Assembly: GCA_018402345.1 (NCBI GenBank)
Contig: JAGYIV010000007.1
Coordinates: 1-64,000, forward strand
Direction: 5' to 3'
DNA length: 64,000 nt
From: Terrimicrobiaceae bacterium
GTDB taxonomy: Bacteria > Verrucomicrobiota > Verrucomicrobiia > Chthoniobacterales > Terrimicrobiaceae
Shown here: positions 27,741-64,000 of the stretch, one piece after another
Position numbering within the stretch: position 1 is the first letter of the stretch
Layout of the letters: each line of letters opens with the position of its first letter
Position numbers and translations under genes: made by a program
The notes under the pieces: generated by a model
What the model was told of the DNA's origin: nothing
What the model saw: only the letters and a program-made list of their open reading frames with translations
The model's database searches: none

Positions 27741-28202
27741 TTATGAATGCTTAGCGCGAAATCTATCGAACTTTGCTGCATTATTTAGCTGCACATCAAA
27801 TTCACCGCCAAAAAGCAGCACCAGTTCATGCTTTGTTCTGAACGGCGTCGCGGGTTCAAGCAATATTTTATCCAGATCACTCCAGTTACAGTCGCAAAGT
27901 AAGATTTCACTACTTGGCCTACCTTCAAAATGGCACCTTATATCATCAAGCCAATCGGGAGGGGTCTGAGGGTATGCGTCGCCATATTCATCTTCATCCC
28001 AAAAGGCTAGTGCCTCGCGCCCCCACCGGTCATACATATCCATGATCGAGACATTCGGGCGACCAATCGCAGCAGCAAGCCCCAGAATTACCGATTTATC
28101 TGCATAGCCGATGTAATGGGCTCGGGGATGCCCGCTCTCACGAACCAGCGAGAGAATCGTCATAAGCAGGGCTTCAGATATGGCTGAGGGCATGGTGCGC
28201 AT
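27741..28202 (-). CDS. Hypothetical protein, 153 aa
   Basis: Soluble, acidic. Residues such as YADKSVILGLAAAIGRPN, AFWDEDEYGDAYPQTPPDWL and HELVLLFGGEFDVQLNN look coding but match no family I can name. It follows the DUF2971 gene by 18 bases and is probably its operon partner. Confidence 0.6.
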   Translation of the reverse strand: MRTMPSAISEALLMTILSLVRESGHPRAHYIGYADKSVILGLAAAIGRPNVSIMDMYDRWGREALAFWDEDEYGDAYPQTPPDWLDDIRCHFEGRPSSEILLCDCNWSDLDKILLEPATPFRTKHELVLLFGGEFDVQLNNAAKFDRFRAKHS

Positions 28203-28220
28203 TTTTTTAAAAATGGCTGT

Positions 28221-29192
28221 TCAATGGTATTCCTGCCTTGGAGTTCGAAAAGAATGTAATCTATCCAAATGCGCTGCCTGAATTTTTTCCACATCGGCAT
28301 CGTGGAAACGGAGTTTGTATAGGGTGGGATGAAAATCCACATAACGCAGTTTGGCATGAGGGAGCTTTTTCAAAACAGGCTCAAGAGATTGAATTTGAGC
28401 AGCCGTGCAACGGTATCCGAAAATGATTTCGACGACATTTTCCGGTTTAAAAAGAATAGCTCGCCGAGGTTCTTCACTCGGCTTGCTTGAGGTGAGATGA
28501 AAAGCATCGGCATCCTCATAATCAGAATAAACAAATCGTCTTTCCTGCTCGTAGCTCCATGCGTCATATTTATGGCCCAAGAGTTTGAATAAAGCCTCTT
28601 GGTCTACTGCCTTTTCTTCTTCATGAGAAACGAGAGTTCCATCTGCAAGTTTACGATATCCCGTGGGCCAAGTGGACTTGTCGAACCAATCAAGCTCTTG
28701 ATGGCGGTATAATTCGATCGGGAGCATTAAGCTCGATCGATCAGTTAGATAATTCACCTTTAGGCCACTTTTAATTCTTCCCTGCGGAAAAGAACCCCTC
28801 TCCAAATCAAAGCCGATCGCAATTCCCTGGTGTGAATCGGCATATTGGGACCATAGCAAAATCGGATCAACCACCTCGCTAAAGCAAACTACAGAATAAT
28901 CTTTGCACGCACCGCTAAGAAAAGAATCATGAAAAATGGCTGAAAAATCAACAAATGACTCGACAGGGAAATTTTCCTCATTGCCATAAAGTGCAGGGTC
29001 ATACAGATCGTGAACCTCCAGCGCTTCGGCTAACTGTAGATTGCACCTCAGCGCTATATTTTTTCGCTCCTCGTCCAAAGAGGGAAGCATTTCAAAAGGG
29101 TCATTAAAACTTAACGGGCTGTTACTCCACAAAGCACAGTTTTCCAAAATCGATTTGGCATTTTCAAAGTTCGAAAATTTATAGAGTTGCAT
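28221..29192 (-). CDS. DUF2971 domain-containing protein
   Basis: 323 aa. The DUF2971 pattern is clear: LYKFSNFENAKSILENCALW, SPLSFNDPFEM, DYSVVCFSEVVDPILLWSQY, ADSHQGIAIGFDLE, and a C-terminal AILFKPENVVEIIFGYRCT. The family is of unknown function and is frequent in defence-rich regions. A perfect 21-bp palindrome lies 28 bases before its start. Confidence 0.8.
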   Translation of the reverse strand: MQLYKFSNFENAKSILENCALWSNSPLSFNDPFEMLPSLDEERKNIALRCNLQLAEALEVHDLYDPALYGNEENFPVESFVDFSAIFHDSFLSGACKDYSVVCFSEVVDPILLWSQYADSHQGIAIGFDLERGSFPQGRIKSGLKVNYLTDRSSLMLPIELYRHQELDWFDKSTWPTGYRKLADGTLVSHEEEKAVDQEALFKLLGHKYDAWSYEQERRFVYSDYEDADAFHLTSSKPSEEPRRAILFKPENVVEIIFGYRCTAAQIQSLEPVLKKLPHAKLRYVDFHPTLYKLRFHDADVEKIQAAHLDRLHSFRTPRQEYH

Positions 29193-29219
29193 GTGAGAGG
29201 TCGTGAAGCTTTGTTAATG

Positions 29220-29240
29220 CTTTCGCAAAATTTGCGAAAG
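29220..29240. promoter_or_regulatory. Perfect palindrome upstream of the DUF2971 gene, candidate operator
   Basis: ctttcgcaaa/tttgcgaaag, ten-base arms around one central base, located 28-48 bases upstream of the DUF2971 start. There is no T-tract, so a dimeric repressor site is more likely than a terminator. Confidence 0.45.
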
Positions 29241-29408
29241 AACGGCTTTGGTGCTTGAGTATTCTGGCGTTTCGCGGCCCTTCATTCAGCTACACGCCTT
29301 AAAAGAAATCCGCCTATTCAACGATATTCTTTCTTGTTTGGTTGTAGCGTTATAACCGCCAAATTTTAAGGCAGACGGCAAAGCTGCCGCAGAGATGATA
29401 TAAATTAC

Positions 29409-30203
29409 TTAATTAGATGAGCTTTTATTACTTTCAAGGCGTGCTTGTGATGCATCGATTAATTCATTTAATAAGTCATGAATTTCAACGGGGGAATTTA
29501 ATTTAAATTCATTTATTTCATCTATAGAGCTTTCAATAAATGTCAAAAATACACTTTTGTTAATTATAGAGAGAGGATTGCTATCAATGCCTGTAAATTT
29601 TTCATGCAGCGTAAGTTTATTTCGAGAAATACAATTATTAAGCATCTCGTTTTCTTTCTCTTTTTCAAGGCTACATAATTCGCTTTCAAGGAGTTTAATT
29701 TTATACTGTATATCAACTATTTTATTAACAATCAGATCTGTTTTTTTGCGATAATCGATAATTTGATTCCTTAGAATATTTTCTACATAAACTTCCTTAT
29801 TGAGGTTTTTATGTAAAAATTTATTGCTTAAAAACCAATTTATAAACTTTATTTGAATTGTATTTTTATTGAAGACCTCTTGATCTAACTCTATTTTACC
29901 TTCAACCATATCTAATAATGGTGTTTTTAATTCATCTAAAATCTTATTTAAATCATCAATAGTGTGATTAAATAAATTGTTAGGATTATAATCCCAGCTT
30001 TTGCCACCTTCATCGTTGACTTTTATCATTTGATTCCCATCTTCAAATTGATTATCTATACTACTTGACTCAAAGTTTTTAAAAAAACTTGCTAGCCGCA
30101 GCCCCTTAGATTTATCAAAATATGATGAGTCATTTAAATTTTGAATAAGAACATCATCATTTACCTCTTCCTGATCTGAGTTATATAGATCATCACTTTG
30201 CAT
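29409..30203 (-). CDS. AT-rich, predicted helical protein of unknown function
   Basis: 264 aa (MQSDDLYNSDQEEVNDDVLI). Very rich in Asn, Ile, Lys and Leu, with A/T-ending codons unlike every neighbour. A probable coiled coil is around residues 160-195 (NKIVDIQYKIKLLESELCSL; EKEKENEML). No membrane segment, no recognised motif. It follows the DUF499 gene by 69 bases in the same direction, at the end of the defence operon. Composition indicates recent transfer from a low-GC source. Confidence 0.6.
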   Translation of the reverse strand: MQSDDLYNSDQEEVNDDVLIQNLNDSSYFDKSKGLRLASFFKNFESSSIDNQFEDGNQMIKVNDEGGKSWDYNPNNLFNHTIDDLNKILDELKTPLLDMVEGKIELDQEVFNKNTIQIKFINWFLSNKFLHKNLNKEVYVENILRNQIIDYRKKTDLIVNKIVDIQYKIKLLESELCSLEKEKENEMLNNCISRNKLTLHEKFTGIDSNPLSIINKSVFLTFIESSIDEINEFKLNSPVEIHDLLNELIDASQARLESNKSSSN

Positions 30204-30272
30204 AAAAAGTTTAGAAAATAATAATGTATATTTTAATCAAATCTTAGCATGGCACTTGTTTCATCCCAAATT

Positions 30273-33099
30273 TTACTCCCAATCCTTGCGTTTAAACCCA
30301 AGTGCATTGGCATTTTCCGAAACGGCTCGTTTGATGTGGTCGGCAGCTCCTTGCGGAAAGTCCACGGCGATTTCCAAGGTCACTTTGAGTGCAGCGTTCG
30401 GGTCGCTGTTGAGGACGGCGATGATTTCCTCAGCGATTTGGACAAGCCGTGTTTTGGCTGTATTTGGGGCTATATCGACTGAACCGTTAAAACATTTTGG
30501 CTTAGTAGCCGCCGGAGTGCTTGGCGTTGGAGAGACCGGTCCCGTTGATGGTGGAGTGCCGCCTTTTGACGGCTCTTCCTGAATAATGCCCGGCGCTGAT
30601 ACAGCAGGAACAGGTTCTTTGGGTTTGGCATTTGCCGTCTCATAGGCGGCGGCTGCTGCGGGCTCGATGAGTAGAAGGGTGTCGTCGAACTGCACATTGG
30701 CTTCGCCGAATTTGAAGCCTTCGTATTTTTCGCCGGTCAAGCCGTAGGCTGTGCCAAAGAAGTCGCGGGTTGCTGCTCCTTTGACGATGGCTTGAGCCAA
30801 GGTGCTGCGATCTTTGAGGCGCGAGAGGTAGGGATAGCGCAGCGAGTCTTCCCAGTAATCCATGGCTTTCACGGCCACTTTCTCGGGCTTCCAATAAAGC
30901 TCCTTGAGCTTGTTGCGGAGATGGACTGGCGACCACGTGGAGATGACGAGTTCGTTGTCGATGCAGACGCGTTCGATCTCCGGCCCTAGGGCACTGCCAG
31001 ATGTGTTTAATGGGAATGCCTCAACTTTCAGTTTCTCCGTAGGCGTGTCCTGTGTCGGGCAGAGAAGCCACTTGAAGCACTCTCTTGCCACGCGAGGCAG
31101 CACCTCCACGGCGCTGCTCATTTCTTTTTTGGCCTGGGCGGCTTGGAGATTGTCGAGCACGAGGCGGTTTTCTGACACATCCTTCACGATGGATTCCCAC
31201 GCGAGGGCGATGCGGATGCAGTCGCGCAAGCGAGTGAGAGTGGCGTGGTCGGGGGCGACGAATAGAAGACGGTTTCCGCGATAACGGGGTTTGGTGCCGT
31301 TGTTTCGCGCGTAGTCGAGCACCGCGTCGAAAGCGATCCGCGCTTCTTCCTTCGAGTAGAAATGCTCGGGGGCCATCATCACGAGGCGGAGTGAACTGTC
31401 ATCCGGCACATCGCTGTGTGGAGTGAAAATATGGACCCCATCGAAGAAAGTCGCTCCGGCAGCCAGTGTCTTGGCGACCTCTGCCATCCGTGCACGAACA
31501 TCCGTTTTGTCATCGAATCGTTTTTTTCGCTCCTCCATTTCGCGACGCAGATTGGCGCGGATATCGAACCAATACCTCGTTGTCTCCTGCGTCTTGTCAC
31601 CAGAGGAATTGAGATAATGCAACTGGTCAACGAGGCGATTGAGAGCGTCTGAGTAGGTCGAGGAGGTTTGTCCTGGCTGCAAGCACCCAAGGAGGATGCG
31701 CGAGCGTTCGATCCCCCGAGAGCCTGGAGTGCTACTCACAGAGGAGGGAGCTGTGCTTAGGAAAACCGCCCGTGCTACCCGGCGCGCAGCCTGCACAGCA
31801 CCAAAGCGGGTTTCTTTGGATTCCAACAGGGTCGTCTCGGCACCAGATCCGTCGATATCCCTGTCGATAACTGCATCCCAGCCGGGGCTGAGATAATAAG
31901 TTAATTCATTGCGGGAACCTCCATCATGGAGAGGCAGGCTGCCGGGCAGAATCATCAGGTCGCGGTTGTCATCCTGCCACAGGCGATAAATGGTTTTTGC
32001 CATGAGCTTGAGCACTCCGCGCGTGCGCTGGAAGCCGTCGATGGTGGTCCATGTCTCGTAAAGTTGGGCGAAGACCTCGGGATGGATGGGATAGCTCTGG
32101 AGCATTCGCTCGTAGTAGCGGGCCTCTTGGGTCTCTTGCGGCAGTTTGGTGCCTTCGGAAACATAGGCATCCGCAAACGCCCTGCAGACTTGGTCCCGCG
32201 CTTTGGGATCGCGCGTTGTTTCAAAAAGTCGTCGTCTCACGATTTCAAACGCCTCCTCCGGTGCCACGGTTTTCCAGAGCGCTTGCACACGGTTGAAGAT
32301 GGCCTCTAGTGAGCGCAGGGCGGATACGCCTTGTTGACCACCGGCTTGGTTGTCGGATTCGGGAAGTGAAGCCAGCACGGCGGCATTGGGGACGAGTTTT
32401 GCCGCTTCGGTGAGGGATTGGATGAAAGAAAGGTTGCTGTCGTAGGTGCCACCGCTCAGTTGCTGACCCGTCGCAAATTGGCGGATGTAGACCACCAATT
32501 CATCGAGTAGCACAACACATGGCGCGAATCGGGAGAGCAGTTCCGCGAGGAGTTCCTTGCCCGGCGAGGTGCCGTTTTCATCGGCCTCCTTCACCATGGC
32601 GTATCCCTCCGCTTTGCCGAGTTGCCAAGCCATCTCGCCCCAGAGGGTCCTGATCGTTTGTTTGCCATCTTTCCAGGGCTGGCCGAGGTGAATGTGCCGT
32701 GCCATCCAGCACAGCCACTTTGGCCTTGGGCACATCCAGGAGTCCTGCACGATCCAGCAATGCCGGAACTCCCGCCAACTCCCCCAAGGCACATTCGCGG
32801 GAGGCCAGGTGATACACCGCCAGCATCGTGTGCGTCTTGCCGCCACCGAAGGCCGTTTGCAGTTGGATGACCGGTTCGCCTCCCTTGCCATTGAGGCGCT
32901 GAGCCACTTGCGTGAGCAGGCGTCCCATGCCTTCGGTGATGAAGGTTCGCTCGCAGAATGCCTTCGCGTCTCCGTATTCCTTCGTTGCCTTGCCCGTGCG
33001 CACCGCCGTGAGGTCGGCGGCAAATTCAGATTGCTGGAATGTGCCGCTGAGCACATCCGGATGCGGGACGATGACTTCTCTCCAGGGTTTCAGATTCAT
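30273..33099 (-). CDS. DUF499 ATP-binding protein (one frameshift)
   Basis: About 942 aa once the break is bridged. The true start is MNLKPWREVIVPHPDVLSGT (33099). Walker A is TAFGGGKTH (residues 82-90). The frame shifts near 32695, then continues GQPWKDGKQTIRTLWGEMAW and the Walker B-like VVLLDELVVYIRQF. The tail has LIEPAAAAAYETANAK, a low-complexity Pro/Thr linker (near 30500-30600) and a final helical domain. DUF499 proteins are large P-loop ATPases that recur with DUF1156 methylases and SNF2 helicases in predicted defence loci. It follows dinD by 4 bases. Confidence 0.8.
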
Positions 33100-50344: not shown

Positions 50345-50359
50345 AGTTGCCGGAGCACA

Positions 50360-50766
50360 TCTCCTCGCAAGCTTCCGAGTTTGCCTCTGTGCAAAAGGGG
50401 GCCCATCCAATCCAGCGCCATTTTGGAATTTGAAATGACCTTTGCCATCCACGCGAAGGAAGCCAGGGGCGAGATTCCAAGCGGAAGTTCCGAGCGAGTT
50501 CTGTCCCGGTTCCAGACCGATCTCCAGCGAGGGCGCTACCTGCTTGTGCCCTCGGGCATCGATATCAAGGCCAGCGCCAAGGAGATCGCCGCCAGAGTTC
50601 TCAAACAGAACCTCCAGTTTTTTTGCGAATGCTCGACGGGATTCATATAGCCACAGCCATGGAACTGGGCTCGCCAAAGTTAATCACCGCAGACAAGAAA
50701 ATGGCTGACCCAGCCACTCTGCTTGGTATAAAGACCAGCCTCCTCAAAAAAATCACTTCCGAGTAA
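50360..50766 (+). pseudogene. PIN-domain toxin remnant
   Basis: ILEFEMTFAIHAKEARGEIP, RFQTDLQRGRYLLVP and, after a shift in the T-run near 50622, LDGIHIATAMELGSPKLITA then DKKMADPATLLGIK. This is the C-terminal two-thirds of a PIN RNase (D-G-I-H-I-A-T-A, then the T-A-D-K motif). The N-terminal catalytic aspartate region is missing or scrambled. Confidence 0.65.
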
Positions 50767-50819
50767 TACCTCCCCACCAGAACCATTTCTCACGTAATAT
50801 TTAACTCCTTCCCAGGCCA

Positions 50820-51116
50820 CTGAGACTCACCCCCTTCGAAAGACAGACCATCCGCGAGACCGCCCGCAGTCATTTTGGGGAAGATTGTGCCGCCTATTTG
50901 TTCGGCTCACGAACCCGGGACGATTTACTGGGCGGAGACATCGATCTTCTCACCGAGACAGGATCTAATGATCCCGTGGAATATGCCAAGAAACTCGCCT
51001 TCCGCAGCAATCTGAAGTCCAGAATCCGTGATCAAAAAATCGATTTGCTTTACACCTAACCAGGCGATAACCGCTCGATCATCCTCGAACTCAAGAAGGC
51101 GATAATAAGACTATGA
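50820..51116 (+). pseudogene. MNT-type nucleotidyltransferase, start and stop damaged
   Basis: From a CTG at 50820 the frame reads RLTPFERQTIRETARSHFGE, YLFGSRTRDDLLGGDIDLLT, then IRDQKIDLLYT and a TAA at 51057. The same frame continues PGDNRSIILELKKAIIRL, the usual end of this family, to a TGA at 51114. GSR...D-x-D is the nucleotidyltransferase core. The expected ATG is a CTG and the frame holds a nonsense codon. A 23-residue open frame overlaps its end; no HEPN partner remains. Confidence 0.6.
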
Positions 51117-51207
51117 ACTCCCTTCAAAAATCCCCGCCGGAAATCTATCAATCTATAACCTTCTCTATTGAGTATTTGACATAGGCCGATATAGATCGAT
51201 ACAGATT

Positions 51208-51402
51208 ATGGACTCGATTCAAAATCCCTTCTCTCAAGGCGCAGGCTCTCCCCCGTTAGATTTGGTTGGTCGAGATCAGGTTTTGCGCCAAGCACAAATT
51301 CTTTTTGGCTGGCTCAGACTGGGAATATCCGAGAAGAGCCTCCTCCTTACAGGACTCCGTGGCGTCGGAAAAACCGTGCTGTTGAATGCGAGAGGGTTTT
51401 AA
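51208..51402 (+). pseudogene. Truncated AAA-family ATPase
   Basis: 64 aa: NPFSQGAGSPPLDLVGRDQV, then KSLLLTGLRGVGKTVLLN with a perfect Walker A (GLRGVGKT) and nothing after. Matches the first segment of a widespread ATPase that normally exceeds 350 residues. Confidence 0.7.
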
Positions 51403-51411
51403 TCTAATCTA

Positions 51412-51870
51412 TTGATAAAAGATGCTATGCCATTGAGACAACTCCAACATCCCTTACAAGTCGAGAATTGGCTCATCGAGTGGGGGAATCAAGTGCAGGC
51501 TCCAGCCGAAATGATTTTGATTGGATCCGGTGCCTTGCTCTGGCATGCGGCGCAAATTGGAATTGAAACCCCTCTTCCGGAAAACAGTATGGATGTGGAT
51601 CCAGTGACCGAAAGCGATGAAGTAGCCCTTTTGGGTTACGAAGCGATGATAGGGAGTGACTTTGAGAAAAAGCATGGATGGCATGTGAATTTGATGCCTA
51701 TGGCAGTTCTCAAGGAATTTCCGCCTGATTGGAAAACTCGTGCCAAGCAGAAAAGCTACGGTCTACTCACGGTGCTTGTGCCATGCGCGGCAGACCTTCT
51801 CGTTTCCAAATTAAAACGCGGTGAACCACGCGATATAATCCATGCAGAATGGGCGAGACAACTCTTATGA
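51412..51870 (+). CDS. Nucleotidyltransferase-like protein (AbiEii/DUF6036-like)
   Basis: 152 aa: APAEMILIGSGALLWHAAQI is a GSG nucleotidyltransferase loop and MDVDPVTESDEVALLG the acidic pair region, then HGWHVNLMPMAVLKEFPPDW. It looks like a small AbiEii-type predicted nucleotidyltransferase. ATGA overlap to the next gene suggests a two-gene toxin-antitoxin-like unit. Confidence 0.6.
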   Translation: MIKDAMPLRQLQHPLQVENWLIEWGNQVQAPAEMILIGSGALLWHAAQIGIETPLPENSMDVDPVTESDEVALLGYEAMIGSDFEKKHGWHVNLMPMAVLKEFPPDWKTRAKQKSYGLLTVLVPCAADLLVSKLKRGEPRDIIHAEWARQLL

Positions 51871-52145
51871 GTCCTTGGGGCAAATATCCTGTTTACAAAG
51901 ACATTGCTCGTTTTGAGTATGGTCGCTTGCTTTGGAGGAATCCCTCCGCAAGGCAACGACTCCTTGCCCACTGGAACACCCCAGAGCATCCCTATCAGCA
52001 ACGATTTCTATTGAACCAAGCACTCATTGAAGAAGCGCTCGGTTCGCAATCCAGCGAAGAGGAGTTGGATGAAACATTTCGAAAACGAAAACTCAGCCTC
52101 CGGGTCGTCGCGAGGGAAATCCCTCCCGTCTTCGGCTCCATCTGA
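51867..52145 (+). CDS. Hypothetical protein, partner of the nucleotidyltransferase
   Basis: 92 aa from the ATG at 51867 (MSPWGKYPVYKDIARFEYGR). Contains QRFLLNQALIEEALGSQSSE and ends in a basic strand. Not recognised. Its start overlaps the preceding stop by ATGA. Confidence 0.5.
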   Translation: MSPWGKYPVYKDIARFEYGRLLWRNPSARQRLLAHWNTPEHPYQQRFLLNQALIEEALGSQSSEEELDETFRKRKLSLRVVAREIPPVFGSI

Positions 52146-52216
52146 TGAAATTCAAGGAACGAAAATTGATGTTTATCGTATCCTCCACAGGAAGGAAGTT
52201 TATCGCTAATAATAAA

Positions 52217-52413
52217 ATGAGTATAAATCCACAAATTACAGAAAAAATGGAATTAAAGAGTTCGCCGTTCTTCCCAAGCACGAGTTTTTGGAAATCAAGC
52301 AACTTTTAGAAGATTTTGAAGACCTTCAAGAGTTACGCGAAGCCAAGATCGAGGAATTCAACGAACCAACATGCCCTCTCTCACAAGTTTTAGCAGAACT
52401 CGCTCAGAGTTGA
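52217..52413 (+). pseudogene. RelB/Phd-like antitoxin, frameshifted
   Basis: MSINPQITEK, then after a shift in the A-run near 52245 GIKEFAVLPKHEFLEIKQLL, EDFEDLQELREAKIEEFNEP and LSQVLAELAQS. The strand then V-L-P-x-x-E-F then helices pattern is that of a small antitoxin. No toxin follows. Confidence 0.55.
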
Positions 52414-52443
52414 AACCCGCCAGCAAGAAGAGAAAATTGAAAA

Positions 52444-52533
52444 ATGTTGCTCAAAATGGGATTCACCCCTATGACGCCCGAAATGCGTTCGCAATTGATC
52501 GCTGCCGGGCATTACGGCATGCCTTCGGGGTAA
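52444..52533 (+). other. Short open frame, 29 aa
   Basis: MLLKMGFTPMTPEMRSQLIA then AGHYGMPSG. It lies between the antitoxin remnant and the next nucleotidyltransferase. Probably a fragment of a lost gene. Confidence 0.25.
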
Positions 52534-52587
52534 ATCCAGCAACGAATGAAATCCCGTCTCCTCTGTCTCCACGTAATCAATAAAAAA

Positions 52588-52881
52588 ATGAGGCTTGATT
52601 CCCAAGAAATCCAAACCGTGCGAGCTGCGGTGGAGACGATTGTGGGCGATCGTTCCGAAATCCGGGTATTTGGCTCGCGGTTGGATGATTCCAAGCGCGG
52701 TGGGGATTTGGATTTGCTGATCGAAAGCGAGGACCCTGTGGACGCATTAACCCGCGCGGACCTCAAATGGAGTTTGGAAGAAAAACTCGCCCTGCCTGTG
52801 GACATCATTTTTCTGGAAAAAGGAAAAAATCGAAGCGCTTTTCAAGAACTCGCGTTTTCGAGAAGGGGAATCTTATGTTGA
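52588..52881 (+). CDS. MNT-type nucleotidyltransferase
   Basis: 97 aa from the ATG at 52588 (MRLDSQEIQTVRAAVETIVG). Core IRVFGSRLDDSKRGGDLDLL with GS-x-R and D-x-D, then a third acidic strand VDIIFLEKG. MNT proteins act as antitoxins that AMPylate HEPN toxins. Here only an 18-residue open frame (52876-52932) follows, so the HEPN partner is absent. Confidence 0.75.
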   Translation: MRLDSQEIQTVRAAVETIVGDRSEIRVFGSRLDDSKRGGDLDLLIESEDPVDALTRADLKWSLEEKLALPVDIIFLEKGKNRSAFQELAFSRRGILC

Positions 52882-52974: not shown

Positions 52975-53658
52975 ATGCTTCCAAATCTCGCTCCTTATCT
53001 CCAGGCTCAATTTTTTCAGTGCATCAAAAATCTTGGATTTGACCCTAAACACATTGTGGATGTCGGAGCGAATCGGGGAACTTGGACGCGGAATGCATTC
53101 CAGTATTTTCCGGATGCTTATTTCTCGATGTTTGAGCCTCAAGCCTATCTATCAGGCAGTTTTACCGACTTGCTCAAAAATCCAAAGATCAAGTTTTATG
53201 CCAAGGGTGCGGGCCCCTGCTCGGGGATTATGGATCTTACCACATCCGACCGAGACGATAGTTTCAGCTTTTCATTTACAAAGGAGCAAGCGCAGTCTCG
53301 AGGAAGGACGCAAGTAAAAGCTCCGGTTGTTGCACTTGACGAATTTCTTCCGACACAAGATTTGCCTGCCCCTGATTTCGTCAAAATTGATGCAGAAGGT
53401 TGGGACTTGGAAGTTCTAAAGGGTGCAGAAAAAACTATCAGCAACGCGCAAGTTGTTTTGTTGGAAGCTGCGGTGATGTCAAAGTCCTTCACAAATTCGG
53501 TTGCAAAAACGACTCAAGCCATGTCCGATAGGGGGTTCTGTGTATTTGATATCACAGACCTAAACCGAACACAAAAACACAACGCATTGTGGCTTATTGA
53601 ATTGGCGTTCGTAAAAGCGGGGGGGCCGCTGGCCTGCACTGTTGACTCGTATGCCTAA
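52975..53658 (+). CDS. FkbM-family methyltransferase
   Basis: 227 aa. SAM-binding motif IVDVGANRGTWTRNA (27-41), FEPQ, then DLPAPDFVKIDAEGWDLEVL and GAEKTISNAQVVLLEAA, the FkbM signature. It probably O-methylates a sugar of the glycan made by the genes that follow. Confidence 0.85.
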   Translation: MLPNLAPYLQAQFFQCIKNLGFDPKHIVDVGANRGTWTRNAFQYFPDAYFSMFEPQAYLSGSFTDLLKNPKIKFYAKGAGPCSGIMDLTTSDRDDSFSFSFTKEQAQSRGRTQVKAPVVALDEFLPTQDLPAPDFVKIDAEGWDLEVLKGAEKTISNAQVVLLEAAVMSKSFTNSVAKTTQAMSDRGFCVFDITDLNRTQKHNALWLIELAFVKAGGPLACTVDSYA

Positions 53659-53872: not shown

Positions 53873-55243
53873 ATGATTTACATTATCGGAGCAGGAATAT
53901 CCGGCCTTGTTTCTGCCTATCAGGCTTCTAAAGAAGTTGGTGGTAACAACATTGTGATACTCGAAAAGGATACAAATATTGGCGGCGCTTTAAGAGGGGT
54001 ATTTTATCCTGAACAGGGCATGCATTTTGATAATGGAACGCACATTTTTCGGATGACTGGAATTGCTGAACTTGACCAATTGTTGATTAATTGCATAGGT
54101 GACTCACAAGTTGTATTTCACGATAAAGTAAAAATTGGTGCGGTCTATACTAATAAATTACAAGAGAACTCACATTACCCAGACATCCGCGAGAGAAGTA
54201 ACCTAAATGAACTTAAAAAAAATATATTTGATACACAATTAGAAAAATCAGGAATAAATATAAGAGAGCAACATGTTAATCTTTTAAATTTTGCTTATGA
54301 ACGATTCGGGGCTTTATATTCAAATGAGATATTATTGCCGGCGCTGAGTAATTTATTTCGTTCAGACCCTAAATGCTTATCAAGCATGGCGCTAAATTTA
54401 TCAGGACTATCAAGATGTATAGCATTTAGTGAAGATGAGTGGAAATCTAATTCTACTTCAACTGATTTTCGGTCTGTTTTTGGCTACCCCAATCAAGACA
54501 CTATGCCTATTGAATTTGAAAACAAGTTAAAGCAATTCTATTCTAAAGAAAATGGAACAAACTCTCTGATCATCGGACTTAAAAACTTACTAGAAAAGGC
54601 AGGTGTTAAGATTGAGACCGGGGTAATCGATTTTCAACTTAACCAAAAAACAAACACGATCATTTTCAAAAATCGGAATGGAACGATCATTCAGGATAAG
54701 AATCCGATCGGCATTATATTGGCCAACGGTTTGCTGGGTTCTGCAATAGTTCTTGGTATACCAATCCCAAAATTTCAAAAAACTCCCAGACTTGCAATGT
54801 ATCACATAGGCCTCGATTCATCACCTAAAAGAAATCTAGCATATTTCTGTAATTTCAACCATCACTATAGTTTTTTTCGAGCCACTAATTACAAAATGCT
54901 AACGAATAATTGTAATGACAATCGCATTACAGTAGAGATATTAGTTGATAATCCAAGCAATATCCCAGCTATTAGTGAGATTATCAAAAATCTCAAAGAT
55001 ATTGATTTTTTAGATAACGAAAGGGTTTCATTCTGTGAATTTGCATATTTAAAATCATACTACCCATATCCAGACCTGAAAAATACGCAATTTATAAATG
55101 CATTAAAAACTGATATAGCTCAACATAAAGTTCCAGAAAACATTTGTTCGTTTGCATCTCATGGTGGGGCAGGCTTTTTTCAGAACAATGTAGTGGCACT
55201 AGCGTTTGAAGAGACAGCCGCATTCATTAAATCACTAAAGTAA
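53873..55243 (+). CDS. FAD/NAD(P)-binding oxidoreductase (amine oxidase / UGM-like)
   Basis: 456 aa. Rossmann motif MIYIIGAGISGLVSAYQASK, then ILEKDTNIGGALRG and MHFDNGTHIF as in UDP-galactopyranose mutase and protoporphyrinogen-oxidase-like flavoproteins, and a C-terminal FAD loop FASHGGAGFFQNNVVALAFE. Very AT-rich. Substrate unknown; a sugar-nucleotide step is likely from context. Confidence 0.75.
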   Translation: MIYIIGAGISGLVSAYQASKEVGGNNIVILEKDTNIGGALRGVFYPEQGMHFDNGTHIFRMTGIAELDQLLINCIGDSQVVFHDKVKIGAVYTNKLQENSHYPDIRERSNLNELKKNIFDTQLEKSGINIREQHVNLLNFAYERFGALYSNEILLPALSNLFRSDPKCLSSMALNLSGLSRCIAFSEDEWKSNSTSTDFRSVFGYPNQDTMPIEFENKLKQFYSKENGTNSLIIGLKNLLEKAGVKIETGVIDFQLNQKTNTIIFKNRNGTIIQDKNPIGIILANGLLGSAIVLGIPIPKFQKTPRLAMYHIGLDSSPKRNLAYFCNFNHHYSFFRATNYKMLTNNCNDNRITVEILVDNPSNIPAISEIIKNLKDIDFLDNERVSFCEFAYLKSYYPYPDLKNTQFINALKTDIAQHKVPENICSFASHGGAGFFQNNVVALAFEETAAFIKSLK

Positions 55244-55271
55244 TTCTTTTTTATATTATTAATAGAATTAT

Positions 55272-56247
55272 ATGAACATTTTACCTCTCTTGCATAGGAA
55301 AGCGCGGTTACATTGCAAATTTTTTTCGTGATTCTCTGTCGCCTGATAGTAAGATTATTGGGACAAGCAACACATTTTGGACTCCAGGTTTTTCTTCATG
55401 TGATATATCACTGGTTCTTCCGCCCATAAGCTCAGATGAATACATTCCAGTATTAATTAATGAATGTCTAAAACATGATGTATCAGGACTCTTGTCATTT
55501 TATGATCCAGATGTTCATAGAATTTCTAAGTGTCGGGAGGATTTTCTCAAAGCCGGAATTATACCTGTAATTCCAAAATACGCAGGATCTTTGATAGCAT
55601 ATGACAAGCTTAAAACGCATAGTTTTCTCTCTGATTTAAATATACCGGTTCCACTGACAACCAATTCATATTCGGAAGCATATGAATTTTTGAAAGAGCA
55701 ACGATTATCTTTTCCATTAGTAGTGAAACCCCGTTTTGGTTTTGGCAGTTCGAATACATTTATTGCTAGAAATAATTTGGAATTGGAAGTATTTTATAAT
55801 TATGCCCCAGAAATGATTATTCAGCAATTTATAGACGCAGAAGCTGTAAATATTGATGGATTGGGAGATTTGATGAGCAATCCAATATCAATTATTCCAT
55901 GGAGAAAATTGCTTTCAAAAATGGGTGAGACCGAGCGCTGCATCACTATTGACTGCCCCGAAATTATTCAACTTGGAGATCAACTGATCAAGTCTGTTGG
56001 AATAATTGGACCGTTTGATGCCGATATTTTTAGAGGCACCGATGGCAGACTTTGGGTGCTTGAATTAAATCTGCGTTTTGGCGGTGGTTATCCTGTTTCT
56101 CAACTTGCTGGCGCAGATTTTCCAAGTAAGATTATTCGGATGATAAGGGGCGAGAATCTTGAGTCTTGCATGGGTTCTTATAAACGAGGGGTTACAATGA
56201 TGAAGCGATTGCAAATAATCAATGGGCCAAGTCAGCAGACCATCTAA
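55272..56247 (+). CDS. ATP-grasp ligase (frameshift near the start)
   Basis: From the ATG at 55272 (MNIL) one base must be removed near 55288 to read CIGKRGYIANFFRDSLSPDS, IIGTSNTFWTPGFSS and then the continuous frame. ATP-grasp signatures are FPLVVKPRFGFGSSN, EMIIQQFIDAEAVNIDGLGD and VLELNLRFGGGYPVSQLAGA. About 325 aa, carbamoyl-phosphate-synthase-like branch. It would join a carboxylate to an amine on a glycan precursor. Three bases separate it from the next gene. Confidence 0.75.
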
Positions 56248-56249
56248 AC

Positions 56250-56954
56250 ATGTTAAAATCACCAGACGAATGGGATTCCCAGTGGGAAACATGGTTTCAT
56301 AGATACTCGCAAGGAAATCCAAGGCTTGGAAAGTGGCTATTGTCTAATTATTCTATCACTAATGAAAATATTCTTGAAATCGGAGCTGGCAGCGGAAGAG
56401 AATCTCGTTTTTTATCGCAGAAAGTTAAATCTGTTACATGCGTGGACTTTGCGCCCCATGCAGTGCGTCTTCTAGCTAATTCGAGTTTGCCAGGCAACAT
56501 GCATGTTTTGATGGCTGACGCTGCAAACCTCCCCTTTCCCGATAAGTATTTTGATTTAACTTTCCACAAAGGCTTTTGGATTCTTTTTGATAGTAATGCA
56601 AAGCTTGAGATTTTGCTGCATGAGCAGTTGAGAGTAACGCGGCATATTTCACTAGCAATCGTCCAAAACGGATTAAATAACAGACAAGTTCGAGAGGCAG
56701 GCACTAAGGCGCAAAAAGATCCTTTATTTCGCTTCAGATTTTTTATACCATCAGAAATTAACAGTCTTGCATGCAAAATTGTGACTGAACATGGTATCCG
56801 TGCTCATATTCAAATTCTTAAATATGGCGCTCCAAGTTTGAGTCGCTTTCTTCTTCCTCTGGGTGCTTTGGGTGACAGGTTTGCTGTTAAAATCTACAAA
56901 TTTCTTCCATGGAAATTCGTTGAATGTGCAGTATTGCAAATCGTAAAAGTTTAA
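56250..56954 (+). CDS. Class I SAM-dependent methyltransferase
   Basis: 234 aa. ENILEIGAGSGRESRFLSQK is motif I, VTCVDFAPHAVRLLA motif II, MADAANLPFPDKYFDLTFHK motifs III-IV. Methyltransf_11/25 type. Directly follows the ATP-grasp gene. AT-rich like its upstream neighbours. Confidence 0.8.
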   Translation: MLKSPDEWDSQWETWFHRYSQGNPRLGKWLLSNYSITNENILEIGAGSGRESRFLSQKVKSVTCVDFAPHAVRLLANSSLPGNMHVLMADAANLPFPDKYFDLTFHKGFWILFDSNAKLEILLHEQLRVTRHISLAIVQNGLNNRQVREAGTKAQKDPLFRFRFFIPSEINSLACKIVTEHGIRAHIQILKYGAPSLSRFLLPLGALGDRFAVKIYKFLPWKFVECAVLQIVKV

Positions 56955-56989: not shown

Positions 56990-58114
56990 ATGTCTATAAA
57001 TAACACCCTGCTAGTGGGACGCCCAAACCTCGGCGATCGGGGCGTCCTATTAAATCGTATAAACGACATGCTGGATCGGCGTTGGTTTTCCAACAATGGC
57101 CCATTGGTTCAGGAGTTTGAAAAGTCAATTGCGGATTTTCTTGGAGTGAAGCATGTGATGGCGATGTGCAATGCCACGGTGGCTCTCGAGATCGCCAGCC
57201 GGGCGCTGAATTTGCAAGGCGAGGTGATCGTGCCGAGCTACACTTTCATTGCCACGGCCCACGCCCTGCAGTGGCAGGAAATCACCCCGGTTTTTTGCGA
57301 CATGGACCCCGCCACGCACAATATCGATCCGGCCAAGATCGAGCGGCTCATCACACCGAAAACGACGGGAATTCTCGGGGTGCATGTGTGGGGGAGGGGG
57401 TGCGACACGGAGGCGATCGAGAAGATCGCTGTGCGGCGACATCTCAAAGTAATGTATGATGCCTCCCATGGATTTGCGTGTTCCAAAGGCGGGCGGATGC
57501 TGGGAACCTTCGGCGAATGCGAGGTCTTTAGCTTCCATGCCACGAAGTTTCTGAACTGCTTTGAGGGCGGCGCGGTGGTGACGAACAACGACGACCTGGC
57601 CGAAAAAATGCGTCTCATGCGGAATTTCGGTTTCCAAGGATTCGACAATGTCATTTACCTCGGCGTGAATGGCAAGATGAGCGAGGTGCACGCTGCGATG
57701 GGACTCACGAATTTGGAGGCGGTGAAGGAAATCATCGCCGTGAATCGGCGGAATTACGAAGCGTATCGGGCGGGTTTGGCTGAAGTGCCGGGAATCTCAC
57801 TTATATACTACGATCCCGCCGAGAAAAATAATTACCAATATGTGGTGGTCGAAGTAGACCATAAAGTTTGCCCACGCAATCGAGATGAAATCGTCGAAGA
57901 GCTGCATAAGCAAAACATCATCGCGCGGAAATACTTTTGGCCAGGGTGCCACAGGATGGAGCCTTACAGATCGCTGCAACCAAACGCAGGGTTGCTCCTG
58001 AAAGAAACCGAAAATATCTCGGCAAGGGTCATCGTTTTGCCTACCGGTCAAACAGTTGAAGTCGAAACAGTCAACTTCATCTGTGATCTAATTCGCGGAT
58101 TTTTAAAAATTTAA
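56990..58114 (+). CDS. DegT/DnrJ/EryC1/StrS aminotransferase
   Basis: 374 aa. NATVALEIASRALNLQGEVI, PSYTFIATAHALQWQEITPV, the PLP Asp in VMYDASHGF (D157) and the Schiff-base Lys186 in SFHATKFLNCFEGGA. It makes amino sugars on nucleotide-linked keto sugars. Codons are GC-rich from about 57120 to 57790 but AT-rich on both sides, so the gene looks like a recombinant. Confidence 0.9.
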   Translation: MSINNTLLVGRPNLGDRGVLLNRINDMLDRRWFSNNGPLVQEFEKSIADFLGVKHVMAMCNATVALEIASRALNLQGEVIVPSYTFIATAHALQWQEITPVFCDMDPATHNIDPAKIERLITPKTTGILGVHVWGRGCDTEAIEKIAVRRHLKVMYDASHGFACSKGGRMLGTFGECEVFSFHATKFLNCFEGGAVVTNNDDLAEKMRLMRNFGFQGFDNVIYLGVNGKMSEVHAAMGLTNLEAVKEIIAVNRRNYEAYRAGLAEVPGISLIYYDPAEKNNYQYVVVEVDHKVCPRNRDEIVEELHKQNIIARKYFWPGCHRMEPYRSLQPNAGLLLKETENISARVIVLPTGQTVEVETVNFICDLIRGFLKI

Positions 58115-58125
58115 CTGTAAATTTA

Positions 58126-61100
58126 ATGGAGAAAGCCAAAGATATAAAATCCGCTTTTCAATTACCGGTGCCTGTTAGAATTTCGGAACAGGTTTGGGAG
58201 GATGGCACGATTCCATTGTTAAGTATATGTTGTTTAACATATAATCATGTAAATTATATTGAGAAAACGATTGATAGTTTTCTCATGCAAGAAACTGTTT
58301 TTCCTGTTGAAATTATTATAAGAGATGATGCATCTACCGATGGAACACAAAAAATTGTGGAATCTTATGTCAAGAAGTATCCATTGGTGATCAAAGCAAA
58401 CCTTCATCTTGAGAATCAATTCCAAAAGGGCAAAAGGGCTTTTTCTGAAATTTTTGCGTTGGCGAATGGGGATTTTATCGCATTGTGCGAGGGCGACGAC
58501 TATTGGACGGAACCAACTAAACTACAGAAGCAAATTTTTCTGTTAAAACAAAATCCTACAGCCAGCTTTTGCTTTCATAATACATTGATAATAAATGAGC
58601 AAATGAAAGTAAAGGGACAACTTCGACCGCAAAATCCAAGGTTATTTCATTGCGTTGATGAACTGCTTAGTTATAATTTTATTCATACATCATCAATAGT
58701 CTTTCGGAACACTTTTCTGCTTGGTTCTTCGAGATTATACAACAAAGCACACATGGGCGATTGGCCGTTATGTATTCTTTTGGCGGAGAGGGGTCAGTTT
58801 CTCTACATCGATGAAGTCATGTCGCACTACAGGTTACATGGCCAAAGCAGTTGGAGTTCACAAAGCGAGGCAACACGGTGTGCAAAAACTGCTCATTTGT
58901 TTGATTTGTTGAGAGATCACTTTGCCAAAAAACCTGAACTTTTGGCCAAGGTGAATAATGGGTTTATCATGCATTGCTTGAATGCGGCTAGGGATTTCAA
59001 GAATCTTAATGATACGGAGAACGCTAATTTCTTTCATGAAAAAGTTATTGAGGCGCTTGCTGGCGTTAAGATTTCTGAAAGGGTCCAGGAGAGATATGCG
59101 AAACAAACTCCTCTGGATTCAGAAAATGCCCCTCTCATAAATTCCGAACTTCAATTTAAAAGCAATGCAAATCAGCATGATCCAGTAGTTAGCATTTGTA
59201 TTCCGACTTTTAATGGCGAGCTTTTTATAAAAAACACGCTCCTATCTGCTTTATCGCAAACTTTTCCGAATACAGAAATCATTGTTTCAGATGATTCCTC
59301 AACGGATAGGACTTGTGAGATTGCCGAACATGCCCTGAGAGATTCCAAGTTTCCTTACAGAATCCTTAAACACGCTCGCTTGGGATTGGTAGAAAATTGG
59401 AATTTCTGCATCGAACAAGCAAAAGGGAAATACATTAAATTTCTCTTTCAAGATGACCACTTGGAGTCATCTTGTGTTCAGAGGTTAGTGGAAGTTGCCG
59501 AAAGCGAGTCCAATATCGGCATGGTTTTTTCGCGCCGCGGGGTTGAGTCGGTTGGTGGCGCCATGATACCAGCGGACTCAATTGACCTTCATAAAGGTTG
59601 GTCAAGGCTTCAAAGAATTCAAAAAGGACGAGATTTGCTTCATGACCCCAAACTTCTAGCTAATCCGATCAATAAAGTTGGGGAACCAACAACTGTTCTT
59701 ATCAATAAAGAAGTGCTGCTTTCCTTGGGCGGGTTTGATCCAAACTTGCGGCAACTTGTGGATGTGGATATGTGGCTGAGGATTATGATGGTTTCCAACA
59801 TTGGGTTTGTGGATGAACAACTATCCACCTTCCGGTTGCACCAAGGTCAAGCCACTCGCGATAATGTAAAAACCGGCATCATTCAAAGGGATTGGGAAAC
59901 TTTTTACAGGAAGCTTGCGGAATCTATTGATTTTAAAAATTTACCGACATTCAACAAGCGGTTAGCCGCGCAAATGCTTGAGAAAATCTCTGTGAAATCA
60001 CCTTCCCACTCTTCCGATCTTCGGTTGATTGGTGCGTGGCGCTTAAATCCCACTGATCCAGAACTTTTAGAAAAAGTCAAAAGTTTGCGGCTGCAATTAG
60101 CAAAGCTGATATTCCAAGCAGAACAGGGGCAATTGAATAGGTTGCTCCAAGACAAATCTGCAGATTCCTACTCGGCACTTCTATCGAGTGGAATCCAAGC
60201 CGAGTTTGTTTCTGCTGAGGATAAGGATTTTTTGCAGGGTATAAATTCCACCGGGCAAACAAGCCAAAACGCTTTCTTTGCCGCAGCATTATTTAAAACG
60301 GCACATCTTATCCCAGAATTTGACGATTTATCAATACTGCCCAAAGAATTTCGCAAAACCTTTTTTGAATATCTATTCAAGTCGATCGAGGTTTTTCAGC
60401 ATCCGGTGGAGGCGGAGATTTACTGCGCGCATTTGCTGGCTTGGATGCGCGAGGCGGTGAGGAGGATTGAGAAGGAACCGAGTGCGGAGTTGGCCCGGGA
60501 ATTGGCGGCGGCGGCGATGCAGTTGACCAATCAAATTCCGGCTTATTGCTCGCCGAAAAGCAATTGCGATCTGACGGGGCTCCGAGCGAGGGTGATCGAG
60601 TATTCTTTGGAAAAACTCGGTGGCGAGTTGACCATGCCGGCAAAGTCGAGGCCTGCCAAACGCGGAAACAGGAAAATTCGCGTGGGGATTTTGAATGCCC
60701 ATTTTGGTTTGCAGACGGAGACTTTCGTGACGATGCCAGCGATGCATTTGGACAAGTCGCGGTTTGAGATTCATTTGTTTCATTGCGTAAAGAATCCGGG
60801 GGCGATCGAGGATCGGTGCCGGGCGTTGGCGGATGGGATGCATCTTTTGCCCGAGGCGATTGGCGAGCGGGTGAAGATGATTCGGAACGCGAATTTGGAT
60901 GCGATCATTATCGGGACGAATATTTCGGCGGTGACGAACCAGATTGCGCTGTTGGCGGCGTTCCGGTTGGCTCCGCTTCAAATCGTATCGCATTGCTCGC
61001 CGATGACGGTGGGCTTCAAGAGTTGCGATGCGTTTCTCTCGGGGTATCTGGCCTACAGCCCGGGACTGAGTGAGGAGGAATTCCACGAGAAGTTGATCCT

Positions 61101-61545
61101 TCTGGATGGGCCGCCGGTTTGTCTGGATTACTCGTGCGAACCGCGTGCGGCGGCAGGGGCGGTTCCGGATCGCGCAAAACTGGGAATACCTGACGGGGCA
61201 CCGGTTTTCTTCAATGCGGCCAGTTGCTTCAAGATGCCACTGGAGTTGTTGCAAGCCTGGGCGCGGCTTTTGAAGGAGGTTCCGGAGGCGTATTTGTGCC
61301 TGTTGCCGTTCAATCCGAATTGGACGAACAAACTGCCGGAGGTTTCTTTCCGCCGGGTGCTGGAAGGGGTGCTCAAGGAGGCGGGGGTGGAGTCCAGTCG
61401 GGTGGTGATCGGGCCTTCGCTGCCGAACCGAGCGGCGGTGATGGAGTTTGAGCGGATCGCGGATGTTTATCTGGATACCTTTCCGTTTGCCGGGAGCATT
61501 TCGACTGTGGATCCGCTGCAGCTTGGGATTCCCGTCGTGGCTTGA
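58126..61545 (+). CDS. Large glycosyltransferase: two GT2 domains plus O-GlcNAc-transferase-like C-terminus
   Basis: 1139 aa. First GT2 (about 25-250): ICCLTYNHVNYIEKTIDSFL, IIRDDASTDGT, LCEGDDYWTEP. Second GT2 (about 350-600): ICIPTFNGELFIKNTLLSAL, IVSDDSSTDRT, LFQDDHLESS. The C-terminal part (about 755-1139) is OGT/SPINDLY-like: VGILNAHFGLQTETFVTMPA, GAPVFFNAASCFKMPLELL, RVVIGPSLPNRAAVMEFERI, YLDTFPFAGS. Composition jumps from AT-rich to GC-rich near 60390. The frame ends at a TGA just after LGIPVVA, where OGT domains normally continue for about 60 residues. Confidence 0.85.
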   Translation: MEKAKDIKSAFQLPVPVRISEQVWEDGTIPLLSICCLTYNHVNYIEKTIDSFLMQETVFPVEIIIRDDASTDGTQKIVESYVKKYPLVIKANLHLENQFQKGKRAFSEIFALANGDFIALCEGDDYWTEPTKLQKQIFLLKQNPTASFCFHNTLIINEQMKVKGQLRPQNPRLFHCVDELLSYNFIHTSSIVFRNTFLLGSSRLYNKAHMGDWPLCILLAERGQFLYIDEVMSHYRLHGQSSWSSQSEATRCAKTAHLFDLLRDHFAKKPELLAKVNNGFIMHCLNAARDFKNLNDTENANFFHEKVIEALAGVKISERVQERYAKQTPLDSENAPLINSELQFKSNANQHDPVVSICIPTFNGELFIKNTLLSALSQTFPNTEIIVSDDSSTDRTCEIAEHALRDSKFPYRILKHARLGLVENWNFCIEQAKGKYIKFLFQDDHLESSCVQRLVEVAESESNIGMVFSRRGVESVGGAMIPADSIDLHKGWSRLQRIQKGRDLLHDPKLLANPINKVGEPTTVLINKEVLLSLGGFDPNLRQLVDVDMWLRIMMVSNIGFVDEQLSTFRLHQGQATRDNVKTGIIQRDWETFYRKLAESIDFKNLPTFNKRLAAQMLEKISVKSPSHSSDLRLIGAWRLNPTDPELLEKVKSLRLQLAKLIFQAEQGQLNRLLQDKSADSYSALLSSGIQAEFVSAEDKDFLQGINSTGQTSQNAFFAAALFKTAHLIPEFDDLSILPKEFRKTFFEYLFKSIEVFQHPVEAEIYCAHLLAWMREAVRRIEKEPSAELARELAAAAMQLTNQIPAYCSPKSNCDLTGLRARVIEYSLEKLGGELTMPAKSRPAKRGNRKIRVGILNAHFGLQTETFVTMPAMHLDKSRFEIHLFHCVKNPGAIEDRCRALADGMHLLPEAIGERVKMIRNANLDAIIIGTNISAVTNQIALLAAFRLAPLQIVSHCSPMTVGFKSCDAFLSGYLAYSPGLSEEEFHEKLILLDGPPVCLDYSCEPRAAAGAVPDRAKLGIPDGAPVFFNAASCFKMPLELLQAWARLLKEVPEAYLCLLPFNPNWTNKLPEVSFRRVLEGVLKEAGVESSRVVIGPSLPNRAAVMEFERIADVYLDTFPFAGSISTVDPLQLGIPVVA

Positions 61546-61597
61546 TGGGAAAACGACGCGTTCGAGGTGTTCTGGAGCGCAATTGAGGGAGATCGGG

Positions 61598-64000
61598 ATG
61601 GAGGAACTTGTGGCGAAGGGCGAAGGGGAATATTTGCAAAAAGCGGTCCGCCTGTCTCGGGATGTGGAGTATCGAAAAGATGTTTCATCGCGGATTCAGA
61701 AGGCGATGTCCCGGAGGCCGAGGTTTCTGGACCCCGCAGCGTATGGGCGCTCGCTTGGGAATGCTTTGGAGATTCTTGTGGACGAGGGAATCGGGGCGCT
61801 TTCGGATGCTGCTGCGTTTCATGAGAGGCTGAAGGAAAAATCCACTGGAGAATCCGTTGTGCCTCAACCGGCCTTCAAGCCCACTTCCGCCACGCTGGAG
61901 GTGGCGGTGTCGGCGTTCCATGCGGGGCGGTTGGCGGAAGCCGAGGATGTTTGCCGGGAGTTGCTGCAGGCGGATGAGAAGTGCGCGGGGGCTTGGAATC
62001 TCATGGCGCGGATGGCGGCGCTTAATGGCGATCTTGAGACGGCGGGGGATTTCGGGGCGGTGGCTTGCGAGCTGGAGCCGGAGAATGCGGGGTTCGTTCG
62101 GTTTTTGGCGGAAGTGTTTTTGCGACGGAAGGAACTCGAGCAGGCGGAGCAGTTGGCTCGCCGGGCGATGGAGTTGGAGCCGGAGTCTTCGGAGAGCTTG
62201 GTCATGCTGGGGCGCGTGCTCGCGGAGAAGGGGGAGCAGGGGAATGCGCTGGGGGCGTTTGAAAAGGCCCTTCGGATCAAGAAAGACGATGCGGAGGCGA
62301 TTTCGCATTATGCCATGGCCTTACAGAAATTCGACCGGGGGAAGGATGCGATTTCGCAGATTCGCAAGGCGTGCACGCTGGAGCCGGATTCCGTGGAGCA
62401 TCAGACGAACTTTGCGACCTTGCTGGAGCAAAACAAACGCTACGTCGATGCGCTGGCAGCCTATGGCAAAGCGGCGCGGATGAATCCCGATGTGGGCTAT
62501 ATTTGGTTCCGGCAGGGCAAGCTGTTGAACGGGCTGAAGCGCTACGCGGAGGCGATTCCGGTGCTGGAAAAGGCGGTGGCGTTGCCCGGTCAACTCGGGG
62601 AGTTTTACTACGAGTTGGGGCTGGCTCTGCACATGTCGAAGCATTTTCCCGAGGCGCTGGCTCAGTATGAGAAGGCGCTGGAGCACGGGTTCGACTCCGC
62701 GGCGTTGCAGTGCAATCGTGGCGTGATTTTCAAGGAACTGAGGCGGGGAGGGGACTCGATCATGGCGTTCCACACGGCGGTGAAGATGGACCCTTCGAAT
62801 GTGTCGTATTTGAACAATCTCGGTGCGGCGGCGCTCGAGATCGGCTTGAACACGGAGGCGCTGGGGTGCTTCGAGGAGGCGGCGCGGCAGAATCCGAAGC
62901 TCCCGACCGCGCAGAATAATATCGGCAACCTGCTCAAGGACCGCGCGCGGGGCATGGATGCGCTGCCGCACTATCGCAAGGCGATGGAACTGGATCCGGA
63001 GAACCACGACACGCAGAGCAACTATCTCCTCTGCCACATGTATCTCGCGGAGATGAATCCGCAGGCTGTCTTCGAGGAGCACCGGAAATGGGGGCTCACC
63101 AAGGCGAAAAAAACGCCGACGGCATTCAAGTTCAAGCCGCGTGCGCCGGGAGCCAAGCTCCGCGTGGGGTTTCTCTCGGCCGACCTGTGCCACCATCCGG
63201 TCGCGCATTTCATCGAGCCGCTCTTCCGCGAATACGACAAGGAGCGCTTCGAATTCATCGCGTATGGCGACCAACGGAAGTCCGACGATTTCTCGGCGCG
63301 TTTTGCAACGCAGGTCGATTTGTGGCGCGAGACATGCAGTCTGACCGACCAGGCGCTGGCCAAGAAAATCCATGAGGACAGGGTGGACATCCTGTTCGAA
63401 CTGTCGGGCCACACCGCCTACAACCGCCTCGGCGCGCTGGCGCTGAAGCCCGCGCCGCTCCAGGCGAGCTATCTCGGGTATCCCGGCACGACGGGTCTGC
63501 CGGCGATTGATTTCCGCATGACCGACACGCTGGTGGATCCGGCGGGCATGACGGAAAAATACCACACCGAGCGCCTGATCCGCCTGCCCCGTTGCGCGTG
63601 GTGCTACGAGCCCGATGCTGTGGCGCCGCCTGTCGGGCCGCTGCCGGCGCTGAGGAATGGCTACATCACATTCGGCTGCTTCAACAACATGGCGAAACTG
63701 AATCCCGCGCTGTTCGAGATGTGGGCGGAAATTTTGCTCCAGGTTCCAGGGTCGCACTTGCGGCTCAAGGCGCGCACGCTCACCGACGAGGGTGTAAGAA
63801 ACGAGTTGAAGGACTATTTCACCGCAAAGGGCATCGCTGCCGAGCGGCTCGATTTCTTCGGCCACACCCGGAAAATCCATGAGCATCTCGACCACTACCA
63901 CCAGGTCGATATCGCGCTCGACAGCTACCCCTACCACGGCACCACGACGACCTGTGAGGCCCTCTGGATGGGGTGCCCGGTGGTCACCCGCGCCGGTGCG
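61598..64000 (+). CDS. TPR/O-GlcNAc-transferase-like protein, running off the window
   Basis: Open from the ATG at 61598 to the window end, at least 800 aa, GC-rich. It begins EELVAKGEGEYLQKAVRLSR, which is the missing end of an OGT domain rather than a normal start, then about eleven TPR-like repeats (61870-63050; for example ALGAFEKALRIKKDDAEAIS). A second OGT domain follows: LRVGFLSADLCHHPVAHFIE, LSGHTAYNRLGALALKPAPL, YLGYPGTTGLP, GYITFGCFNNMAKLNP, and YPYHGTTTTCEALWMGCPVV. It may be the continuation of the upstream gene, split by a TGA and a one-base shift around 61543-61570. Confidence 0.8.
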   Translation, partial: MEELVAKGEGEYLQKAVRLSRDVEYRKDVSSRIQKAMSRRPRFLDPAAYGRSLGNALEILVDEGIGALSDAAAFHERLKEKSTGESVVPQPAFKPTSATLEVAVSAFHAGRLAEAEDVCRELLQADEKCAGAWNLMARMAALNGDLETAGDFGAVACELEPENAGFVRFLAEVFLRRKELEQAEQLARRAMELEPESSESLVMLGRVLAEKGEQGNALGAFEKALRIKKDDAEAISHYAMALQKFDRGKDAISQIRKACTLEPDSVEHQTNFATLLEQNKRYVDALAAYGKAARMNPDVGYIWFRQGKLLNGLKRYAEAIPVLEKAVALPGQLGEFYYELGLALHMSKHFPEALAQYEKALEHGFDSAALQCNRGVIFKELRRGGDSIMAFHTAVKMDPSNVSYLNNLGAAALEIGLNTEALGCFEEAARQNPKLPTAQNNIGNLLKDRARGMDALPHYRKAMELDPENHDTQSNYLLCHMYLAEMNPQAVFEEHRKWGLTKAKKTPTAFKFKPRAPGAKLRVGFLSADLCHHPVAHFIEPLFREYDKERFEFIAYGDQRKSDDFSARFATQVDLWRETCSLTDQALAKKIHEDRVDILFELSGHTAYNRLGALALKPAPLQASYLGYPGTTGLPAIDFRMTDTLVDPAGMTEKYHTERLIRLPRCAWCYEPDAVAPPVGPLPALRNGYITFGCFNNMAKLNPALFEMWAEILLQVPGSHLRLKARTLTDEGVRNELKDYFTAKGIAAERLDFFGHTRKIHEHLDHYHQVDIALDSYPYHGTTTTCEALWMGCPVVTRAGA

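Follow-up and report, generated by a model that had tools for sequence, protein, structure and literature searches.

Near the end of the window, the 64,000-nt stretch of DNA analysed here, a glycosyltransferase gene changes abruptly from AT-rich to GC-rich within one open reading frame (ORF). Does this step record the exchange of a catalytic module on a resident scaffold and, if so, how long ago did that exchange take place? The answer depends on the true limits of the gene, on its orthologue in a second genome of the genus (G015) and on more distant relatives that carry other domains in front of the same C-terminal part.

A composition switch inside a giant gene

The ORF at 58126-61545 has a single dominant GC3 change-point, at 60376 (3-lnL interval 60367-60409), where GC3 goes from 0.37 upstream to 0.75 downstream. 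Its lnLR of 139, against a maximum of 10 across 300 shuffles, bears out the sharp switch near 60390 that a first-pass annotation had reported. For this ORF alone the lnLR was 54.6; across 88 kb of the contig, no other long open frame reached 30, and the higher values mostly belong to change-points close to the frame ends. Between about 51 and 60 kb the sequence is AT-rich, apart from the GC-richer DegT gene (GC3 0.64), and the low-GC part of the gene belongs to this stretch. A second AT-rich stretch (GC about 0.39-0.40) lies at 28001-31000, the rest of the contig being mostly at 0.5-0.6. Elsewhere, a low-GC3 open frame of 1310 aa with a Ser/Gly-rich repeat end (ASSGGDG) is located about 1 kb from a GT41 gene (L008:930-4859, that is, C3:80930-84859).

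Coordinates of the giant gene, its domains and its upstream neighbours in the window
Feature	Position	Strand	Remarks
FkbM methyltransferase gene	52975..53658	+	common to G015
AT-rich block: FAD/NAD-binding oxidoreductase, ATP-grasp, methyltransferase	53873..56954	+	WbqC and sulfotransferase genes instead in G015
DegT-type aminotransferase gene	56990..58114	+	common to G015, same order
Giant glycosyltransferase gene, 5' part to premature TGA, 1139 aa	58126..61545	+	
GT2 domain 1, AT-rich, approximate limits	58213..58878	+	Pfam PF00535 in two stretches; stand-alone GT2 gene matches, residues about 30-250
GT2 domain 2, AT-rich, approximate limits	59182..59880	+	PF00535 residues 356-499; matches at residues about 353-585
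All-helical domain ahead of OGT1	60022..60675	+	homology to other-headed relatives begins at 60022; model secondary structure
GC3 switch, 0.37 to 0.75	60367..60409	+	within helical domain; change-point analysis
OGT1, divergent GT41-like GT-B domain, shortened by stop	60676..61542	+	Pfam PF13844; SPINDLY/OGT matches
Premature TGA	61543..61545	+	window two bases shorter here than G015, G011 and G013
Remainder of gene, frame +1: end of OGT1, TPR repeats, canonical GT41	61544..64000	+	on to 64249 of contig C1

The ORF had been described as a GT2-GT2-OGT gene. Two GT2 domains and a GT41-like domain are indeed present, but the ORF stops short of the gene's end. From 61544 the +1 frame stays open to 64249 of the contig, and in G015 the intact gene is a single uninterrupted ORF of 2037 aa, in the order GT2-GT2-helical domain-OGT1 (GT41-like)-TPR-GT41. 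Comparison of the two sequences indicates that the stop is a frameshift, so the end of the ORF is not the end of the gene. Programmed frameshifting was rejected: G015, G011 and G013, with two extra bases, read through, and no conserved shift site is present. An assembly or sequencing error in an otherwise intact gene is a sizeable possibility, if somewhat short of an even chance. The relatives carry an intact gene, identity to G015 remains at 86% beyond the stop, and the sequence comes from an assembly of unknown make. Against an error, the difference amounts to two bases and lies outside a homopolymer run.

OGT1 passes the PF13844 profile with 40.8 bits, over the second half of the profile only, and the C-terminal domain passes it as GT41 (OGT/SPINDLY) with 192.9 bits, the cut-off being 25 in both cases; TPR families match in front of the C-terminal GT41, at residues about 115-496. 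Both domains have profile or sequence matches to SPINDLY/OGT enzymes (GT41; PDB 8dtf, 7y4i, 2jlb, 5djs), from which OGT1 differs in having a helical domain in front instead of an evident TPR array. In an alignment with human OGT, OGT1 retains the lysine of the FxxxxKI segment whereas the other motifs differ, and it reads GSISTVDPL where the C-terminal domain has GTTTTCEAL. A search of viral contigs for OGT1 relatives found none, and a phage as carrier was rejected on that ground.

A structure model places helices up to residue 198 and the first strand at 219; it is weak (pLDDT 65, pTM 0.47), and its helix/strand layout alone was used. A fold search with it returned little beyond the sequence matches of OGT1. 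In this low-confidence model the GC3 switch falls towards the end of a predicted helix. The switch had been placed at the border of the catalytic modules, but the second GT2 domain ends near 59880 and the GT-B fold starts near 60676, with the switch between them.

Age of the switch

The window protein and its G015 orthologue are 84% identical. The first-pass annotation took the switch for the trace of a fresh exchange, a reading that turns on whether orthologues share the two-part composition. G015 does: its GC3 switch lies at codon 751, that of the window at codon 750, and freshness fails on this point. G015 also has the same GT2-GT2 head (81% aa identity), and identity at fourfold sites is 0.766 to the left (58900-60376) and 0.747 to the right (60376-61544) of the switch (p=0.70), so that synonymous divergence is equal on either side. 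An exchange in the window's lineage alone is thus very improbable, even though the composition difference has still not levelled and the adjacent AT-rich block at 53873-56954 differs from G015. The best explanation is that the switch predates the separation of the window's species and G015.

The two genomes share a block at 50.3-64.2 kb, but what surrounds it differs between them. Within the block, FkbM and DegT are shared on either side of 53873-56954, where the same locus holds different content of like role. At 50348-52673 there are pieces similar to a G015 contig (C15:6777-10166), but their order is changed and gaps separate them, which would suit a rearrangement of the upstream flank.

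A shared switch could also result from a later transfer of the entire gene, switch included, between the window's lineage and G015, in place of common descent. The differing surroundings of the locus agree with such a transfer, and a tract at 58753-62521, which spans the switch, has a fourfold identity of about 0.73 compared with 0.50 in the 3' part and 0.57 in rpoC. However, on both sides of the tract divergence matches that of the genome, which limits any transfer to part of the gene, and the yardstick is thin, consisting of rpoC and a few neighbour genes only. We consider this transfer a possibility to be taken seriously, although less likely than not; any recent movement would, if anything, have involved the tract of about 3.8 kb across the switch. 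In the first GT2 domain, positions 58353-58753 are 67% identical to G015 at the nucleotide level, below the rest of the gene, which hints at further mosaicism in the head.

Different heads on one scaffold

The helical domain, OGT1, the TPR repeats and GT41 together form a scaffold that is present in 8 of the 213 genomes searched within the order. A genome-contig scan of named collections returned only five relatives, all of them Verrucomicrobiota MAGs (Spartobacteria, Chthoniobacterales). The heads in front of this scaffold differ: GT2-GT2 in the window and G015, GT4-GT2-GT4 in G011, GT2-GT4 in G036, and a single GT2 in G089 and G091, which lie outside the genus. This last head was recognised by eye in the translation. 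The genes of G013 and G026 are truncated at contig ends; the contigs of G011, G013 and G026 all stop at or near the giant gene. In another family of the class (f17), most OGT1 domains are found in ORFs of about 740-870 aa that lack these heads.

G011 and G036 are 52% identical in the GT4 head and 54% in the scaffold; with head and scaffold so similarly conserved, the GT2-GT2 head looks like the derived state. A search for its donor found none, the nearest GT2 relatives being 39-44% identical. In G089 and G091 GC3 is uniform along the gene, with no composition step; since their head is a GT2 domain, low GC3 is not intrinsic to such domains.

The pair G011/G013, with 99% aa identity in rpoC, shows a break in identity. 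Left of alignment column 192 their aa identity is about 38-40%, and right of it about 94-95%; nucleotide identity is 0.49 and 0.88, respectively, and fourfold sites agree at 4/13 on the left and 106/159 on the right (p=0.015, a small test). The pattern shows what appears to be a direct N-terminal replacement, with the break within the helical domain, and this replacement is best explained as younger than that shared by the window and G015. A run of N occupies part of the helical-domain region of the G013 gene (L031:162-420).

The window's gene can be aligned with other-headed relatives from near 60022 onwards, and the switch is located about 350 bp inside this region; the original joint and the composition step therefore need not be a single event. 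In alignment columns, the step of the window (124-138) lies upstream of both the identity break of G011/G013 (188-203) and the G011 step (146-312), which falls in or just after the helical domain. The simplest account would be a crossover in or near the helical domain. As a control, other families were inspected, and the helical domain evolves fast there too; we dropped the window/G011 divergence in this domain as independent proof of recombination because another family diverges similarly, and use the argument for G011/G013 only. A tree of the helical domain showed no conflict with that of the scaffold, and the genus as one group was not rejected.

These observations bear on the alternative that no module was ever exchanged and that the step arose in an old fusion gene whose parts differ in constraint or mutation bias, the helical domain simply diverging fast. 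Its fast evolution in other families agrees with this, as does the AT-rich 5' part in all three genus members, despite two different heads. Rate, however, cannot explain why identity is 40% vs 95% across the break in G011/G013 when it is 79% vs 95% in the equally close pair of the window's genome and G015; the heads do not consist of homologous modules in a common order, and GC3 shows no step in G089/G091. We regard the absence of any exchange as unlikely. Recombination is the best reading because the differing heads, the G011/G013 break, the relative conservation of head and scaffold and the uniform GC3 of G089/G091 combine in its favour.

The gene is a mosaic that probably arose by intragenic recombination, a scaffold with a replaced AT-rich 5' part, and likely encodes a flagellin glycosyltransferase. 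On a conserved scaffold of GT41-like OGT1, TPR repeats and canonical GT41, the GT modules and the start of the helical domain would have been replaced by AT-rich DNA through recombination within the gene that predates the split between the window's species and G015. Other Chthoniobacterales carry other GT modules on the same scaffold, and one or more replacements of this kind, as in G011 vs G013, would be younger. The first-pass proposal that an N-terminal module was exchanged onto a resident OGT scaffold survives in this older form, on the scale of genus and order, but not as a fresh event. More speculatively, and in our judgement rather doubtfully, the helical domain could be a recombination hot spot for repeated exchange of GT2/GT4 cassettes on a fixed flagellin-binding scaffold, the flagellar glycan being set by module swapping in one polypeptide.

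Likely role and comparison with known systems

In G015, G089 and G091 the giant gene has flagellin genes no more than about 2 kb away; for stand-alone OGT1 in G297 and G222 the corresponding distance is up to about 6-10 kb. The G036 contig showed no flagellin linkage. In the window's genome no flagellin gene adjoins the giant gene, the nearest on the same contig being about 52 kb away; its contigs C1-C4 contain 15 flagellin matches, and many of these are clustered on C2 at 160-170 kb. Being frameshifted and away from flagellin genes, the window's copy may have been moved and may be split or decaying. G015 also encodes a flagellin-like protein in which a C-type lectin domain separates the flagellin N- and C-terminal parts (L029:2995-4347). 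The genes around the giant gene in G015 and in the window (FkbM, WbqC, sulfotransferase, DegT) would suit sugar modification.

FlmG of Caulobacter crescentus is a soluble flagellin O-glycosyltransferase whose TPR part binds flagellins (PMC7591256). Its TPR repeats are followed by a GT-B domain, the layout found in the TPR-GT41 part here, so that the giant enzyme combines both elements of an FlmG-type flagellin glycosyltransferase; flagellin genes are linked to it in G015, G089 and G091, but not in the window's genome or on the G036 contig. Because the relatives' genes sit beside flagellin genes, FlmG-like flagellin glycosylation is a likely role by analogy. FlmG, however, has 596 aa and one GT domain. 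The proteins described here have about 2000-2500 aa; TPR-GT41 forms their C-terminal end, and they carry an extra GT41-like domain as well as GT2/GT4 heads. In the manner of FlmG, the TPR part may hold flagellin while a GT41 domain attaches the initial sugar. Further sugars would then come from the exchangeable GT2/GT4 domains, and swapping these would alter the flagellar glycan. Replacing glycan-making heads would in this way vary the glycan made, and the fixed scaffold with its alternative heads offers a natural set for testing whether GT2/GT4 heads decide the flagellar glycan.

Homologous recombination is known to replace flagellum-glycosylation islands in aquatic bacteria; in the study concerned, every replacement involved a complete cluster (PMC4033161). 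Such replacement flexible genomic islands resemble the present case in that surface-glycan genes are swapped for others of like role, apparently via recombination in shared sequence; there, entire clusters bordered by conserved genes are swapped from strain to strain (PMC4033161). The different gene content of like role at 53873-56954 has the character of such an island. In the giant gene, by contrast, the join lies within one gene, and the comparison is between species, with one genome per species. If our reading is true, surface glycans in these Verrucomicrobiota diversify inside a single modular gene, beyond whole-cluster swaps, and an intragenic join in one giant modular enzyme looks like what sets this locus apart from the known replacement glycosylation islands.
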